NCBI GenBank assembly: GCA_002686835.1
Contig: NYYP01000006.1
Location: forward strand, 57,494-121,493
DNA length: 64,000 nt
Origin: Opitutia bacterium
GTDB taxonomy: Bacteria > Verrucomicrobiota > Verrucomicrobiia > Opitutales > Seribacteraceae
Direction: 5' to 3'
In this document: in pieces, positions 30,974-37,542 of the stretch
Layout: the number at the start of each line of letters is the position of its first letter
Position numbering within the stretch: position 1 is the first letter of the stretch
The notes under the pieces: model-generated
The model's database searches: none
The model's input: the letters and a program-made list of their open reading frames with translations, nothing else
Told to the model about the DNA's origin: nothing
Made by a program: the position numbers and the translations under genes

Positions 30974-31633
30974 TCACGAACGAATTACAATTTTTTCAGC
31001 GGTTTTGGATCCCAAATTAAGAATTGTTTTTTGTTCCACTTTTAATTCGATCGAGTCGGCAATCTCGTCATGACGAATAATTTCGATTCTCTTCCCTGGT
31101 ACCAATTTGTTCTTTCGGGCAAATTGCAGAAATTTTCTTCCTTGGTCTTGAATAGACTCAATTCGTACGCAATCTCCCTCCACACAATCGAGCAAACTAC
31201 GATTGGAAGCCTTCGGCATGGTTCCCCGCTTTGTTGGAATTGGATCGCCATGAGGATCGTGACTCGGTCGACCGAGAAACTCGTCCAGTTTTTCCAGCAC
31301 TTTTTCAGAAATTGCATGCTCTAATTCCTCAGCTTCATCATGAATTTCTCCCCAGTCCAAACCCAGAGTTTCCACCAGGAATGTTTCGAGCAGTCGGTGT
31401 CTGCGCAACATATTCATACCGACTTTTCGTCCCGCTGAGGTTAACATCACTCCTTTACGGGGACGGTATTTCAACCAGCCTTTTTTTTCCAGGCTCTTCA
31501 TCATGGTTGTGGCAGTCCCCGGGGTAACCTGCAAGCATTCTGCGACCTTTCCCATAGCTACTTCGGATGATTCCGCTTGAATCGATTCCACAAGTATTTG
31601 TTTAAGATAATTCTCTACGGTTGAACTTGGCAT
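30974..31633 (-). CDS. DtxR/MntR-family metal-dependent transcriptional regulator
   Basis: VENYLKQI, MGKVAECLQVTPGTATTMMKSLEKKGWLKYRPRKGVMLTSAGRKVGMNMLRRHRLLETFL, IHDEAEELEHAISE, DPHGDPIP, C-terminal FeoA-like domain. Confidence 0.93.
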   Translation of the reverse strand: MPSSTVENYLKQILVESIQAESSEVAMGKVAECLQVTPGTATTMMKSLEKKGWLKYRPRKGVMLTSAGRKVGMNMLRRHRLLETFLVETLGLDWGEIHDEAEELEHAISEKVLEKLDEFLGRPSHDPHGDPIPTKRGTMPKASNRSLLDCVEGDCVRIESIQDQGRKFLQFARKNKLVPGKRIEIIRHDEIADSIELKVEQKTILNLGSKTAEKIVIRS

Positions 31634-31694: not shown

Positions 31695-31712
31695 ACTTTG
31701 ATTAGTCAAAGT
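31695..31712. promoter_or_regulatory. Candidate DtxR/MntR operator in divergent intergenic region
   Basis: Perfect inverted repeat ACTTTGA-TTAG-TCAAAGT between the divergent DtxR gene and the metal ABC operon. Confidence 0.6.
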
Positions 31713-31742: not shown

Positions 31743-32699
31743 ATGCATATTTTTCTTCCACTCTTGAATATCCTCTTTCTTTTTACCCTGGTTGTTGGTT
31801 GTGGGGGGCCACAGAAAGCCGATACAGCAATGGATGCAAAGCCCCTAGTTGTTGCCACGACCACCCAGCTTTCTGATCTGGCGAGGCAGATTGGAGGAGA
31901 TCATATCGAGGTCGTCTCATTAATGAAACCCGGGGTGGATCCACACTCTTACCAAGCATCGGCTCAAGATATTACCAATCTGCATTCAGCCGACTTTGTC
32001 CTTTTTCACGGTCTCTCTCTTGAAGGCAAGATTGCCCGGGTTTTGGAGAATGTGAAAAAGAAGGGAAAGTTTCATTTCTCTCCATGTGTGGCATTACCTA
32101 AAGAACAATTAATTCAAGGGGAAGACACCAGTGCACCCATCGATCCTCATCTTTGGTTTTCGCCAGATTTGTGGATTCAGTGCGGCCATTTACTCAGCCA
32201 AAAATTTTCTGAGTTTCTCCCCCAAAATCAGGAGTCTTTTGCTTCCAATTTTTTACAATTTAAACAGTCGGTTAAAGAACTCGATCATTGGGGGAAAGCA
32301 TTGGTTGGGGGCCTTCCTGAAACTTCGCGGACCCTAATAACCAGTCATGATGCTTTTCGATATTTTGGCCGCCATTTTGATATTCGGGTCGTTGCCCTTC
32401 AGGGAATCAATACCATTGCCGAGGCCGGATTGGCAGACCGAACAAACTTGGTTGATTTCATCCGCAAGCACCATTCCCCGGCTCTATTTGTGGAAAGCAG
32501 CGTAAACCCAAAAGCACTCAAAGAAATTGCCCGTGAAACCGGTTCTGTTATCGGAGGAACCCTCTTTTCTGATGCCCTGGGATCAGACTCCCAGTTTGCT
32601 CAAGGACCCAAGGGAGAAAACCTCCCCACCTCCACTTGGCAAGGAATGATGGCTCATAATTTGAGGACCATTGAAAAAGCCTTGCAAAAAACACAGTGA
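31743..32699 (+). CDS. Metal (Mn/Zn/Fe) ABC transporter substrate-binding lipoprotein
   Basis: VVGCGG lipobox; VVATTTQLSDLARQIGGDHIEVVSLMKPGVDPHSYQASAQDI; ITSHDAFRYFGRHFDIRVVALQGI: ZnuA/TroA-like. Confidence 0.93.
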   Translation: MHIFLPLLNILFLFTLVVGCGGPQKADTAMDAKPLVVATTTQLSDLARQIGGDHIEVVSLMKPGVDPHSYQASAQDITNLHSADFVLFHGLSLEGKIARVLENVKKKGKFHFSPCVALPKEQLIQGEDTSAPIDPHLWFSPDLWIQCGHLLSQKFSEFLPQNQESFASNFLQFKQSVKELDHWGKALVGGLPETSRTLITSHDAFRYFGRHFDIRVVALQGINTIAEAGLADRTNLVDFIRKHHSPALFVESSVNPKALKEIARETGSVIGGTLFSDALGSDSQFAQGPKGENLPTSTWQGMMAHNLRTIEKALQKTQ

Positions 32700-33463
32700 C
32701 CAACCCTATACCCATACCCCTTGAAATCCACGACCTGACCGTGGCCTATGAACATAAACCTGTGCTGTATGGGATTGATCTGAAGGTGGAGCAAGGATCA
32801 TTGGTGGGGATTATCGGTCCAAACGGTGCAGGAAAATCTACCCTAATCAAAACGGTAATGGGTATGATCAAACAAGAGGATGGTTACATCAAAATCTTTG
32901 GTAACAAAAACCATAAAGCCATCACCCGTATTGGCTATGTTCCACAACGAGAGAGTGTAGATTGGGATTTTCCTGTTACCGCGATGGATGTAGTCCTCAT
33001 GGGTAGGTTTGGCCATACCGGATGGTTCCGTAGAATAAATAAAAGGGACCGTACTTTTGCCTCTGCGTGCCTTGAACAGATGAACCTTTTGCCTTACGCA
33101 GACCGTCAAATCGGCAACCTATCCGGTGGGCAACAACAGCGGGTTTTTCTTGCCCGTGCCCTTGCTCAGCAAAGTGATTTATACTTAATGGATGAACCTT
33201 TTGAGGGCGTGGATGCAGTAACTGAAAAAACTATTGTTGCATTACTTAAACAGCTACGAGACCAGGGAAAAACCTTGATGGTTGTCCATCATGATCTTTC
33301 CACTGCCAAAGAATATTTTGATCAACTGGCCCTACTTAACATGCGCTTAGTTGCATACGGCAATACCAATGAGGTTTTTACCAACGAACTCCTGCAAAGG
33401 ACTTACGGAGGCAAACTCACCGTTCTCTCCGAAGTAGGTAGCCGCAAGGTAAACAGTCATTAA
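32696..33463 (+). CDS. Metal ABC transporter ATP-binding protein
   Basis: GPNGAGKSTLIKTVMG, LSGGQQQRVFLARALAQ, LMDEPFEGVD; 4-bp overlap with SBP gene. Confidence 0.95.
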   Translation: MTNPIPIPLEIHDLTVAYEHKPVLYGIDLKVEQGSLVGIIGPNGAGKSTLIKTVMGMIKQEDGYIKIFGNKNHKAITRIGYVPQRESVDWDFPVTAMDVVLMGRFGHTGWFRRINKRDRTFASACLEQMNLLPYADRQIGNLSGGQQQRVFLARALAQQSDLYLMDEPFEGVDAVTEKTIVALLKQLRDQGKTLMVVHHDLSTAKEYFDQLALLNMRLVAYGNTNEVFTNELLQRTYGGKLTVLSEVGSRKVNSH

Positions 33464-33471
33464 ACTTCCAT

Positions 33472-34971
33472 GTGAAACGCTCAATGTCTTGGGTCTGCCA
33501 GTTTTACAAATTTAAATACTTGTTACTTATATTGGTTGGGTGGAGTGCCCACCAACTGCAGGCAGATCAAATAATCGATGCTTCAGCTAAAGACTGGATG
33601 GATCGTGCCCTACGATTTTGGTCATTTGATGAGCCTTCTCTTCAGGTCATAGTCGTGGGCGTCCTCCTGGTTGGTACCAATTGCGGTTTAATGGGTGGTT
33701 ATATAGTAACCCGTCGTCTTTCGATGTTTGGCGATACCTTGTCCCATGCGGTTTTGCCCGGGATCGCAGTGGGTTACATCATCAGCCAATCAAGAAACCA
33801 GTGGGGGTTGATGCTGGGTGCAACCTTATCTGGATTTATCGGAGTTGCTATTATCTCCCTGTTAAAAAAGTACACCAAGATAAAAGCTGACAGTGCAATG
33901 GGGTTGATTTTGGCCTCTTTCTATGCACTGGGAATTTGCCTGCTCTCACATTTACAACAGGCTCCGGGCGGGGGCATTGCCAACCTGGAAAATTACTTGT
34001 TCGGTTCTTTGGTTGGTCTTTCCCAATCTGACCTACCCGCTATTATTGCCTGTCTTTGCCTAATTGTGCTTACTTTCATACTGCTTAAGAAAGAACTGTT
34101 GGTATCAGGCTTTGATCCTTCCTTTGCTCGCTCAATTGGGTTGCCGGTTGATATTATTCAATTCTTTTTGTGGGCTTTGTTGGCATTTTGTATCGTTTCT
34201 TCCCTCCAAATTATTGGCGTAGTTCTGGTCTCGGCACTGCTCATTATACCAGCAGCAACCTCCTGGTTACTTACCCACAGGATGAGCCATCTCCTCATCC
34301 TCTCTGCTGTAATTGGTTCATTGAGTGCTCTGATGGGCTGCTTTTTTTCATTCCTGACCAATCATTTACCCGCTGGCCCAACCATTATTCTCTGCTCAAC
34401 TTTTATATTTTTAATGGTATTGTTTTGTAGCCCGTACCGGGGGATCATACCTGCATGGGCAAGATCCAGAAAGCGAGCCCAGAGGATTCGTCTGGAAAAT
34501 ACCCTGAAGGCCTCTTACCAGGTACTCGAAGAATTCGGCTTTGGCCAAGAATCGTTTACGCAGTCACACCTTGCACGACGGAGGGGTAAAAGCGATGGTG
34601 AAATTGAACAGGAAGTCTATGCCATGATCCGCCAAGGATTTGCCACCCGCACAGCTAAAACCCAAGATCAGCCCAATGAATTGCCGTCTGAAAACATGAT
34701 CTCACTCACCCCAAGTGGCTGGGAGGTGGCCTGTCGGATGATCCGGAATCATAGATTATGGGAGCTTTATCTTACGAATGAAGCCTCTTACGCCCCTGAT
34801 CATGTTCACGACGATGCCGAAAAAATTGAGCATATTATTGGAGAAAAAACCGTTCGTCAGCTTGAGCGTATTCTTGAAAATCCAAGAATGGATCCACACG
34901 GCAAACCTATCCCTGGCCGGGATGATATTGATCGTGGTTGGGCGTCTTCCCCGTCGAGCTCCATCCAATAA
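33472..34971 (+). CDS. Metal ABC transporter permease with fused C-terminal DtxR-like region
   Basis: GLMGGYIVTRRLSMFGDTLSHAVLPGIAVGYI and QIIGVVLVSALLIIPAATSWLLT (TroC/ZnuB-like); C-terminus LTPSGWEVACRMIRNHRLWELYLTN...HVHDDAEKIEHIIGE...MDPHGKPIP (DtxR wHTH and metal/dimerisation features); GTG start. Confidence 0.92.
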   Translation: MKRSMSWVCQFYKFKYLLLILVGWSAHQLQADQIIDASAKDWMDRALRFWSFDEPSLQVIVVGVLLVGTNCGLMGGYIVTRRLSMFGDTLSHAVLPGIAVGYIISQSRNQWGLMLGATLSGFIGVAIISLLKKYTKIKADSAMGLILASFYALGICLLSHLQQAPGGGIANLENYLFGSLVGLSQSDLPAIIACLCLIVLTFILLKKELLVSGFDPSFARSIGLPVDIIQFFLWALLAFCIVSSLQIIGVVLVSALLIIPAATSWLLTHRMSHLLILSAVIGSLSALMGCFFSFLTNHLPAGPTIILCSTFIFLMVLFCSPYRGIIPAWARSRKRAQRIRLENTLKASYQVLEEFGFGQESFTQSHLARRRGKSDGEIEQEVYAMIRQGFATRTAKTQDQPNELPSENMISLTPSGWEVACRMIRNHRLWELYLTNEASYAPDHVHDDAEKIEHIIGEKTVRQLERILENPRMDPHGKPIPGRDDIDRGWASSPSSSIQ

Positions 34972-35906
34972 TGAGTTTTTTCTGGGAAATACTGCAGGGG
35001 CCCTGGGAAACTCCATCCCAGGTTTCGTGGAACTTACAAATTATGATCATGGGTAGCTTGGTTTGTTTGAGCTGCGGACTTGTAGGAACTTTCGTGGTAA
35101 TTCGCAGAATGGCCCTGCTCGGAGATGCGATTAGTCACGGCATTCTACCGGGTATTGTCCTCGCCTATCTGTTTACCGGCAGTCTTTCTCCTGGGCCCAT
35201 GTGGATTGGCGCATGCCTGGCTGGATTAGGGTGCGGCGTATCCATCGAATGGTTAAGCACCAGAACGCCCCTTAGAGAGGATGCTGCCATGGGCCTTACA
35301 TTTACCTCTTTTTTTGCCCTGGGTATCGTTTTGCTTAGCCTGCAGGCAGGCAATGTTCACCTGGACCCTGCATGCGTTCTATATGGTGACATTGGCTTAA
35401 TTCCATTGGAGAAGGAACTAAAACTTTGGAACTATACTTTGGGTAACCAATCTATTTGGAGCACCGGGCTGGTTTGCCTGACAACGGTAATCTCATCCTT
35501 TGTCCTTTACAGGCTTTTGTTGGTTACCAGTTTTGATCTCAGTCTCGCAAAATCACTGGGTATGCCGGTTCTTTGTGTGCAGTATGGATTGATGTTGCTT
35601 CTGGCCTTAGTGATCGTGGCATCCTTTGAGTCAGTTGGAGTAATTCTGGTACTGGCAATGATGATCCTCCCCTCGGTATCCTCCGCTTTTCTTTTTGATC
35701 GGTTGCCTCCTATTCTTATCAGTTGTGTACCTTGGTCTATTTTATATTCCATTGGAGGAATCCACTTGGCACATTGGACGGACTTTCCTATTTCCGCGTC
35801 GATGGCACTCGTTGGATCAATTCTTTTTATACCATGTTGTCTATTCGGCCCCAAAGGAGGGGTACTCAGGAAATCCAATATGCAAACGGGGCAGAGGATT
35901 TCATAA
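34971..35906 (+). CDS. Metal ABC transporter permease (second)
   Basis: VGTFVVIRRMALLGDAISHGILPGIVLAYLF, SVGVILVLAMMILPSVSSAFLF; start refined to ATG at 34971, overlapping the previous stop (TAATG). Confidence 0.92.
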   Translation: MSFFWEILQGPWETPSQVSWNLQIMIMGSLVCLSCGLVGTFVVIRRMALLGDAISHGILPGIVLAYLFTGSLSPGPMWIGACLAGLGCGVSIEWLSTRTPLREDAAMGLTFTSFFALGIVLLSLQAGNVHLDPACVLYGDIGLIPLEKELKLWNYTLGNQSIWSTGLVCLTTVISSFVLYRLLLVTSFDLSLAKSLGMPVLCVQYGLMLLLALVIVASFESVGVILVLAMMILPSVSSAFLFDRLPPILISCVPWSILYSIGGIHLAHWTDFPISASMALVGSILFIPCCLFGPKGGVLRKSNMQTGQRIS

Positions 35907-35974: not shown

Positions 35975-36259
35975 TTATTTCTGAGCCAAGGCTATTTTCT
36001 TTGCCTTCTTGCTGGAGCAATTGCAGCCGTCTACTGAGACCTTGTCACCGGCTGCCAGTTTTGTGGGACATTCAAAACCATCCAGCTGAGTGCTACTGGA
36101 TACTTTAATCTGTTTTTCTCGCTTTCCTTGTTTGACGGTGAGCGTCTTGGAATCGGAATCAAAGCTGACTACCTTTCCATTGATTGTTTTGGCCGGACAA
36201 CCAGCAAAGACAGAAGCGGCAAAAAAGAAACTGGCTAGTGATAGGGTGATGAATTTCAT
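35975..36259 (-). CDS. Small secreted Cys-containing hypothetical protein
   Basis: Signal peptide MKFITLSLASFFFAASVFAG; INGKVVSFDSDSKTLTVKQGKREKQIKVSSSTQ beta-rich DUF5666-like pattern; four cysteines in the mature part. Confidence 0.65.
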   Translation of the reverse strand: MKFITLSLASFFFAASVFAGCPAKTINGKVVSFDSDSKTLTVKQGKREKQIKVSSSTQLDGFECPTKLAAGDKVSVDGCNCSSKKAKKIALAQK

Positions 36260-36357: not shown

Positions 36358-37542
36358 ATGCACATACGGCTACGATTTCTCAGGGTCTTTCTTTGCTGCT
36401 CTCTTTTTGCAGGAGCAATTATTCCTGCTCAATCTCACCCCATTCCCGACCTTCCTGTTTTTGGATTTTTCGAAAACAATGGATCAGCGAACATTATTTT
36501 GGAAATCGACCCACGGGCATTTTCGAAGGATCCCGAAGCGGAACCATTCCTCACATTTACTAGTTTTAAGGAAATGAACGCATCCGTCAGGCAGGGTTTA
36601 CTCCAAGAAGGAAAGAATCTTGTCGAGCAATCTCTCCAAGTAAGGATGAGATCACAGGATTGGTTTCTGCCAAATTTTGATTTTCAATTTAATGAAAAAT
36701 CCGATGATGAAAACAACGAGACAATTATTTTGATTCGGGCTTTTGCAGAATTAAGCCGTGAAAGAAATGACACTTACCAGATCCGTTCACTTGGGACCTC
36801 ATCCTTGGATTTAATATTTACCAATCAAATCAACGGTATTCCTCACCGGCGAGTAAATGTATTATTTCCGGGGGAGGAAAGTTTTGTGCTCAATTTGCCC
36901 ACCCTCAAAAACGATCAAGTTGAGATTAATGAACAGATGGAATCCTCTTCAAATTATGATTATGATAAATCCGGATCCAAGCATATAAAGAGCACTTTCC
37001 TGTCATTTGCCAGACAAGGATTTTTACATGTTTTACCATGGGGACTGGATCATATTCTTTTTGTATTGGGAATTTTCCTTCTGTCCCGAAAATGGAAACC
37101 ATTAGTTCTGCAGGTCTCGACATTTACCCTGGCACACACCATCACTTTGGGACTAGCCACCCTTGGATGGGTGTCTGTGCCATCATCCATCGTTGAACCA
37201 ATTATCGCCGCAAGCATCACCTTTGTGGCCCTGGAAAATATTTTTTTTCCTAAATACCGCACTCGCAGGCTCCTCCTTGTATTTTTCTTTGGCTTGATTC
37301 ATGGTCTTGGTTTTGCGGGGGCCCTTTCCGACCTGAATCTTGATCCATCTGTTCTCTTTGTCTCCCTCGTTGGATTTAACCTCGGGGTGGAGGGTGGCCA
37401 ACTTGCCGTTGTATTACTCTCTTTGGCTGGCGTTTTTCCCTTTCGTAATGAAGAAGCTTACCGAAAAAGAATCGTAATTCCTCTTTCTGTCGCGATTGCT
37501 GGAGTCGGCATTTACTGGACCATCGAAAGAATATTGGGTTAA
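36358..37542 (+). CDS. HupE/UreJ-like membrane protein with extracytoplasmic N-terminal domain
   Basis: Signal peptide; FLHVLPWGLDHILFVLGIFLLSRKWKPLVLQVSTFTLAHTITLGLA; LLLVFFFGLIHGLGFAGAL; FNLGVEGGQLAVV. Confidence 0.88.
   Translation: MHIRLRFLRVFLCCSLFAGAIIPAQSHPIPDLPVFGFFENNGSANIILEIDPRAFSKDPEAEPFLTFTSFKEMNASVRQGLLQEGKNLVEQSLQVRMRSQDWFLPNFDFQFNEKSDDENNETIILIRAFAELSRERNDTYQIRSLGTSSLDLIFTNQINGIPHRRVNVLFPGEESFVLNLPTLKNDQVEINEQMESSSNYDYDKSGSKHIKSTFLSFARQGFLHVLPWGLDHILFVLGIFLLSRKWKPLVLQVSTFTLAHTITLGLATLGWVSVPSSIVEPIIAASITFVALENIFFPKYRTRRLLLVFFFGLIHGLGFAGALSDLNLDPSVLFVSLVGFNLGVEGGQLAVVLLSLAGVFPFRNEEAYRKRIVIPLSVAIAGVGIYWTIERILG

Follow-up and report, generated by a model that had tools for sequence, protein, structure and literature searches.

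We identified a metal ABC importer of the Verrucomicrobiota in which one permease subunit, permC-R, carries a DtxR-like module at its C-terminus. By comparison of fused and free family members, the module appears to keep the DtxR metal site and dimerization domain and to have lost the DNA-reading surface. Since the metal part is nearly unchanged and the DNA-reading part is lost, a built-in brake on uptake is likelier than a gene switch. We consider it probable that the module serves as a cytosolic metal sensor which feedback-inhibits a Mn/Fe-type importer, analogous to transinhibition in MetNI and ModBC. Two elements are new: in some lineages each of the two permeases bears a DtxR module, and the module's DNA-recognition signature has been lost. 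Neither double-module permeases nor this loss was described in the literature searched, most subscription journals lying outside the search.

Fusion gene and distribution

The window, the 64,000-nucleotide stretch of DNA analyzed here, contains an operon of the order SBP–ATPase–permC(R)–permD, where SBP is the substrate-binding protein. Its features and the adjoining regulator are as follows.

30974–31633, minus strand: free DtxR/MntR-type regulator (Pfam: wHTH, metal/dimer and FeoA domains)
31695–31712: palindrome ACTTTGATTAGTCAAAGT, in the gap separating the importer operon from the divergently transcribed regulator
31743–32699, plus strand: metal substrate-binding protein, ZnuA/TroA family (Pfam ZnuA, 2e-69)
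32696–33463, plus strand: ABC ATPase, Mn/Fe type (top NCBIfam hits, all below cut-off, to ABC ATPase models for Mn and Mn/Fe)
33472–34971, plus strand: permC-R, permease–DtxR fusion gene, 499 aa (open frame, Pfam, AlphaFold2)
33640–34428, plus strand: ABC-3 (TroC/ZnuB/PsaC-type) membrane domain, residues 57–319 (Pfam ABC-3, 5.6e-66)
34444–34935, plus strand: C-terminal DtxR-like module, residues 325–488, wHTH fold plus metal/dimer domain (AlphaFold2, Foldseek)
34594–34632, plus strand: former recognition helix, residues 375–387, acidic and diverged across the fused family
34708–34914, plus strand: metal-binding/dimerization domain, residues 413–481 (Pfam Fe_dep_repr_C, 2.4e-24)
34971–35906, plus strand: second permease permD, without a DtxR domain (Pfam)

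The permC-R frame (33472–34971) has no internal stop, and its ABC-3 and Fe_dep_repr_C (PF02742) scores both lie well over the Pfam cut-offs, bearing out the initial annotation of a permease fused to a DtxR-like region. The permD ATG overlaps the permC-R stop codon (TAATG); the ORF listing begins permD at an upstream TTG (34938). Sixty-seven further loci with the fusion came from a scan of named genomes; to judge by their titles, all belong to Verrucomicrobiota or related PVC bacteria, and nearly every one has the fusion as a single open frame. A frameshift between the two parts, a concern raised at the outset, or a mis-assembly is excluded because these 67 loci share the fusion. A similar operon surrounds the fused gene in nearly all loci with long enough flanks, and the nearest named relatives of the window are Opitutales genomes of the Verrucomicrobiota. 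In a phylum survey of 144 genomes, almost all with a completeness of 95% or more, the permease match extended into a DtxR module in 19, and in five of these the partner permease also bore one. No fusion on a plasmid or viral contig occurred among the matches listed. Among the candidate metals manganese is favored, since the models closest to the ATPase, the permease and the regulator point to it, each with a score below the equivalog cut-off. Rfam gave no structured RNA match in the importer operon.

Conservation of metal and DNA-binding regions

Sequence motifs had been noted as parallel between the fused module and the free DtxR; these parallels are genuine and span the DtxR ligand positions. 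Conservation was assessed in 48 diverse fused proteins with identity to the window protein as low as 37%, all of which matched both ABC-3 and Fe_dep_repr_C in Pfam. The residues at DtxR ligand positions (H427, E431, H446, E450, E453 and H454) were conserved in 48/48, and N343, the member of the ligand set in helix 1, was asparagine in 47/48. The stretches NHRLWELYLT and HVHDDAEKIEH were invariant.

The DNA-binding region presented a different pattern. A Pfam scan of permC-R found no match to PF01325 (Fe_dep_repress, the DNA-binding wHTH of DtxR), and none of the 48 fused proteins matched it even at E ≤ 1; 5/5 free DtxR/MntR proteins scanned passed its cut-off. Separate DtxR-like proteins of 316–349 aa are encoded at loci L099–L107 (e.g. 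L102:6787–7773, plus strand, and L100:6634–7680, minus strand), one such gene at L100 being divergent from an ordinary DtxR. The two that were scanned with Pfam have twin FeoA domains and miss PF01325 too, so that a missing match alone is a weak sign. Direct comparison within 12 Opitutales genomes having both fused and free proteins gave a recognition-helix identity of 0.38 for fused versus 0.81 for free, and a metal-domain identity of 0.82 versus 0.89. One to five acidic residues were present in the recognition helix of 67/67 fused proteins and none in that of 21 free proteins (raw counts, kinship included). In a wider sample, likewise including kin, the helix was without acidic residues in 8/10 short MntR-like and 26/26 long free proteins. 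The basic stretch after helix 2 is conserved in the fused proteins, with R371 present in 45/48. Ligands and DNA-recognition residues, whose joint loss the initial annotation had named as evidence against its proposal, have thus fared differently: the former are kept and the latter lost.

Internal initiation yielding a free module was considered and rejected. The sole ATG with an SD-like stretch within permC-R is at residue 385, inside the recognition helix, and this column is leucine in most relatives.

Predicted structure

The AlphaFold2 model of permC-R had a mean pLDDT of 87 and a pTM of 0.78, with local values in the module mostly about 93–98, falling to about 80 near the wing. A wHTH-like fold was modeled at high confidence (helices 364–371 and 375–387, and wing strands). 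The winged-helix-like part described earlier is thus present as a predicted fold, but its sequence does not carry the DtxR signature of a DNA-binding wHTH. Foldseek matched ~145 module residues to the Mn repressor DR2539 (8pvt/8pvz, TM(target) 0.78–0.82), and also to DtxR and IdeR. The module resembles DtxR/MntR regulators (DR2539, IdeR, DtxR, ScaR) in predicted fold, metal/dimer domain and ligand positions. It differs from them in being membrane-fused, in the absence of a FeoA/SH3 domain, in the unmatched PF01325 and in its unconserved recognition helix. Given the confident fold and the conserved basic stretch, the module could conceivably contact DNA or another polyanion.

The nearest solved fold to the permease domain was PsaC of PsaBC (7kyp, TM(target) up to 0.86). 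The PsaBC/MntBC manganese ABC importers share this fold and the operon parts with the window system, whereas PsaBC, reported to be a homodimer (PMC11779740), lacks a C-terminal sensor. In the permC-R model the last membrane helix (301–319) is followed by a long helix (325–354) that is also the first helix of the module. The segment after the last TM helix is strongly basic (mean net charge +5.9), and the module is therefore predicted, by the positive-inside rule, to be cytosolic, with a helical connection to the channel.

Free regulator, palindrome and phylogeny

The separate DtxR on the minus strand, recognized in the initial annotation, is complete. Only two DtxR-domain proteins, permC-R and this free DtxR, were found in the window genome (2.16 Mb, 89% complete), and a separate second DtxR-family protein is present in 49/50 fusion-bearing genomes. 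The module is consequently not the sole DtxR-family regulator in the window genome or in those 49. A perfect ACTTTGATTAATCAAAGT palindrome lies between free DtxR and operon in four close relatives (two near-identical). The window copy is the sole site in its genome with fewer than three mismatches to the palindrome, and is the probable operator of the free DtxR on sequence grounds. With a separate DtxR so widespread and the palindrome conserved, a dedicated transcriptional regulator is available. Another palindrome, TGTTTTA..TAAAACA, was found 5′ of the SBP gene in L018, L022, L028 and L029, loci without an adjacent free DtxR.

A phylogeny of fused and free DtxR domains, as the initial annotation had suggested, placed a 99%-supported branch between all fused modules and the free regulators. 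This was a quick tree, with one fragmentary free row misplaced on a very long branch. An origin of the window module as a recent duplicate of the adjoining DtxR finds no support in this split. The permD-borne modules formed a well-supported group of their own.

Proposed function and alternatives

We propose the following scheme for the sensor function. A YtgC/TroC-type permease subunit would carry a repurposed DtxR module at its C-terminus, placed in the cytosol directly under the channel and helix-linked to the last membrane helix. Once cytosolic metal (Mn or Fe) is sufficient, the module would bind it and change its packing, whether against the ATPases, a second copy of itself or the partner subunit. 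The repacked module would slow further uptake, a substrate-dependent transinhibition, and control of operon transcription would fall to the free, divergently encoded DtxR at the 31695 palindrome. Metal binding, metal identity, and the direction and mechanism of gating are inferred here by analogy. Internal substrate inhibits the MetNI and ModBC importers via dimerizing C-terminal domains on their ATPases, as covered in the available part of a transporter-regulation review (PMC10710835); that part names no DtxR-type brake for Mn/Fe ABC importers. The likeness is a functional one, a C-terminal cytosolic domain able to dimerize and bind ligand, which for the window module is a matter of prediction. 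In MetNI and ModBC this domain belongs to the ATPase subunit and does not derive from DtxR, and inhibition in the window importer is our proposal. The window importer has one DtxR module per C/D heterodimer and so no evident partner for its dimerization, which counts against a sensor or gate, as do the confidently modeled wHTH fold with the conserved basic stretch, the basic recognition helix of related fusions in other families (type II, below) and the DNA-binding repressor to which the homologous chlamydial gene gives rise. Of the two functions offered in the initial annotation, a metal sensor gating transport gains comparative support and a membrane-tethered DNA-binding regulator does not.

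The architecture itself is already known. The initial annotation was aware of no mechanistic study of such fusions, but Chlamydia trachomatis YtgCR (CT069/CTL0325) is a studied permease–DtxR fusion, cleavage of which frees the iron-dependent repressor YtgR (PMC5599777, PMC7755916, PMC6504234). Metal-coordinating residues are conserved in the YtgR repressor domain (PMC5599777), and no iron-dependent regulator other than YtgR has been identified in Chlamydia (PMC6504234). Compared by published description, the two systems share an ABC-3 permease with a C-terminal DtxR-like module in an SBP–ATPase–permC–permD operon. They differ in that YtgR is reportedly cleaved, binds DNA and is the sole iron-dependent regulator identified, whereas the window has a full DtxR adjoining; the recognition helix of the window module lacks the free-DtxR pattern.

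By this precedent, the module could be a latent repressor: once cut from the permease it would be soluble and would repress its own operon in a metal-dependent manner. The gene architecture and operon type match those of YtgCR, with its reported cleavage and YtgR DNA binding (PMC5599777, PMC7755916, PMC6504234), the wHTH fold is predicted intact by AlphaFold2, and the TGTTTTA..TAAAACA palindrome precedes the operon in some loci without an adjacent free DtxR. We nevertheless consider release of a repressor unlikely: the recognition helix is acidic and unconserved, PF01325 is unmatched, 49/50 fusion genomes have a separate DtxR, and the operator-like palindrome of the window is at the divergent promoter of the free DtxR. 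Moreover, helix 2 is lost in the permD-borne copies of L112, L113 and L117, and the junction is modeled as a helix rather than a flexible linker.

A role mainly in assembly, stability or metal hand-off, in which the module pairs permeases or takes metal at the channel exit without feedback control, appears quite unlikely. The dimerization domain and the invariant NHRLWELYLT and HVHDDAEKIEH stretches would fit oligomerization or metal transfer equally well, and the module is found on both permeases in some lineages, but the full DtxR-type ligand set exceeds the needs of assembly. Regulation by a membrane-tethered module that binds DNA without cleavage is very improbable: the fusion, the wHTH fold and the conserved basic stretch near helix 2 would allow it, but it is left unsupported by the eroded, acidic and unconserved recognition helix, the failure of all 48 fused proteins to match PF01325 and the free DtxR nearby.

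More broadly, and with rather less confidence than the sensor function itself, we suggest that Verrucomicrobiota possess an undescribed class of importers under post-translational control by DtxR-derived, non-DNA-binding permease modules. Lineages with both modules would have a heterodimeric sensor beneath the channel, and YtgR would represent a DNA-binding branch. If true, a transcription-factor fold would have been turned into a transporter brake, providing a fast post-translational off-switch for metal importers, and Chlamydia YtgCR would gain a wider setting. Whether such modules are released repressors or built-in gates can then be put to the test in free-living relatives that are in culture, for example Rubritalea marina (L049).

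Variant fusions and neighboring genes

The DtxR module is present on both permeases at ten loci (L111–L118, L130 and L132), which belong to further families within the phylum, for example L111:6609–8183 and L111:8886–10229, both on the plus strand. In the permD-borne modules of L112, L113 and L117 the HTH helix 2 segment is deleted and the metal motifs are kept; in the model of the L112 permD module, helix 1 and the wing are separated by one helix only. A second type of permC fusion (type II; L119–L129, L131, L133 and L135, also from other families) has the motifs HVDRDADxVEH and RQHLLRALYE. Its ligand motif is changed, with histidine at the DtxR residue-10 position, and its recognition helix, RSW[ST]..LR, is more conserved and basic, which makes DNA binding by these fusions conceivable. 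From their sequences, type II fusions possibly use a different metal or have retained DNA binding.

Shortly 3′ of the metal operon, the window encodes a HupE/UreJ-type membrane protein (36358–37542, plus strand), possibly another metal transport gene. Between the two sits a gene for a small, probably secreted DUF5666-like protein (35975–36259, minus strand; Pfam match slightly under cut-off).
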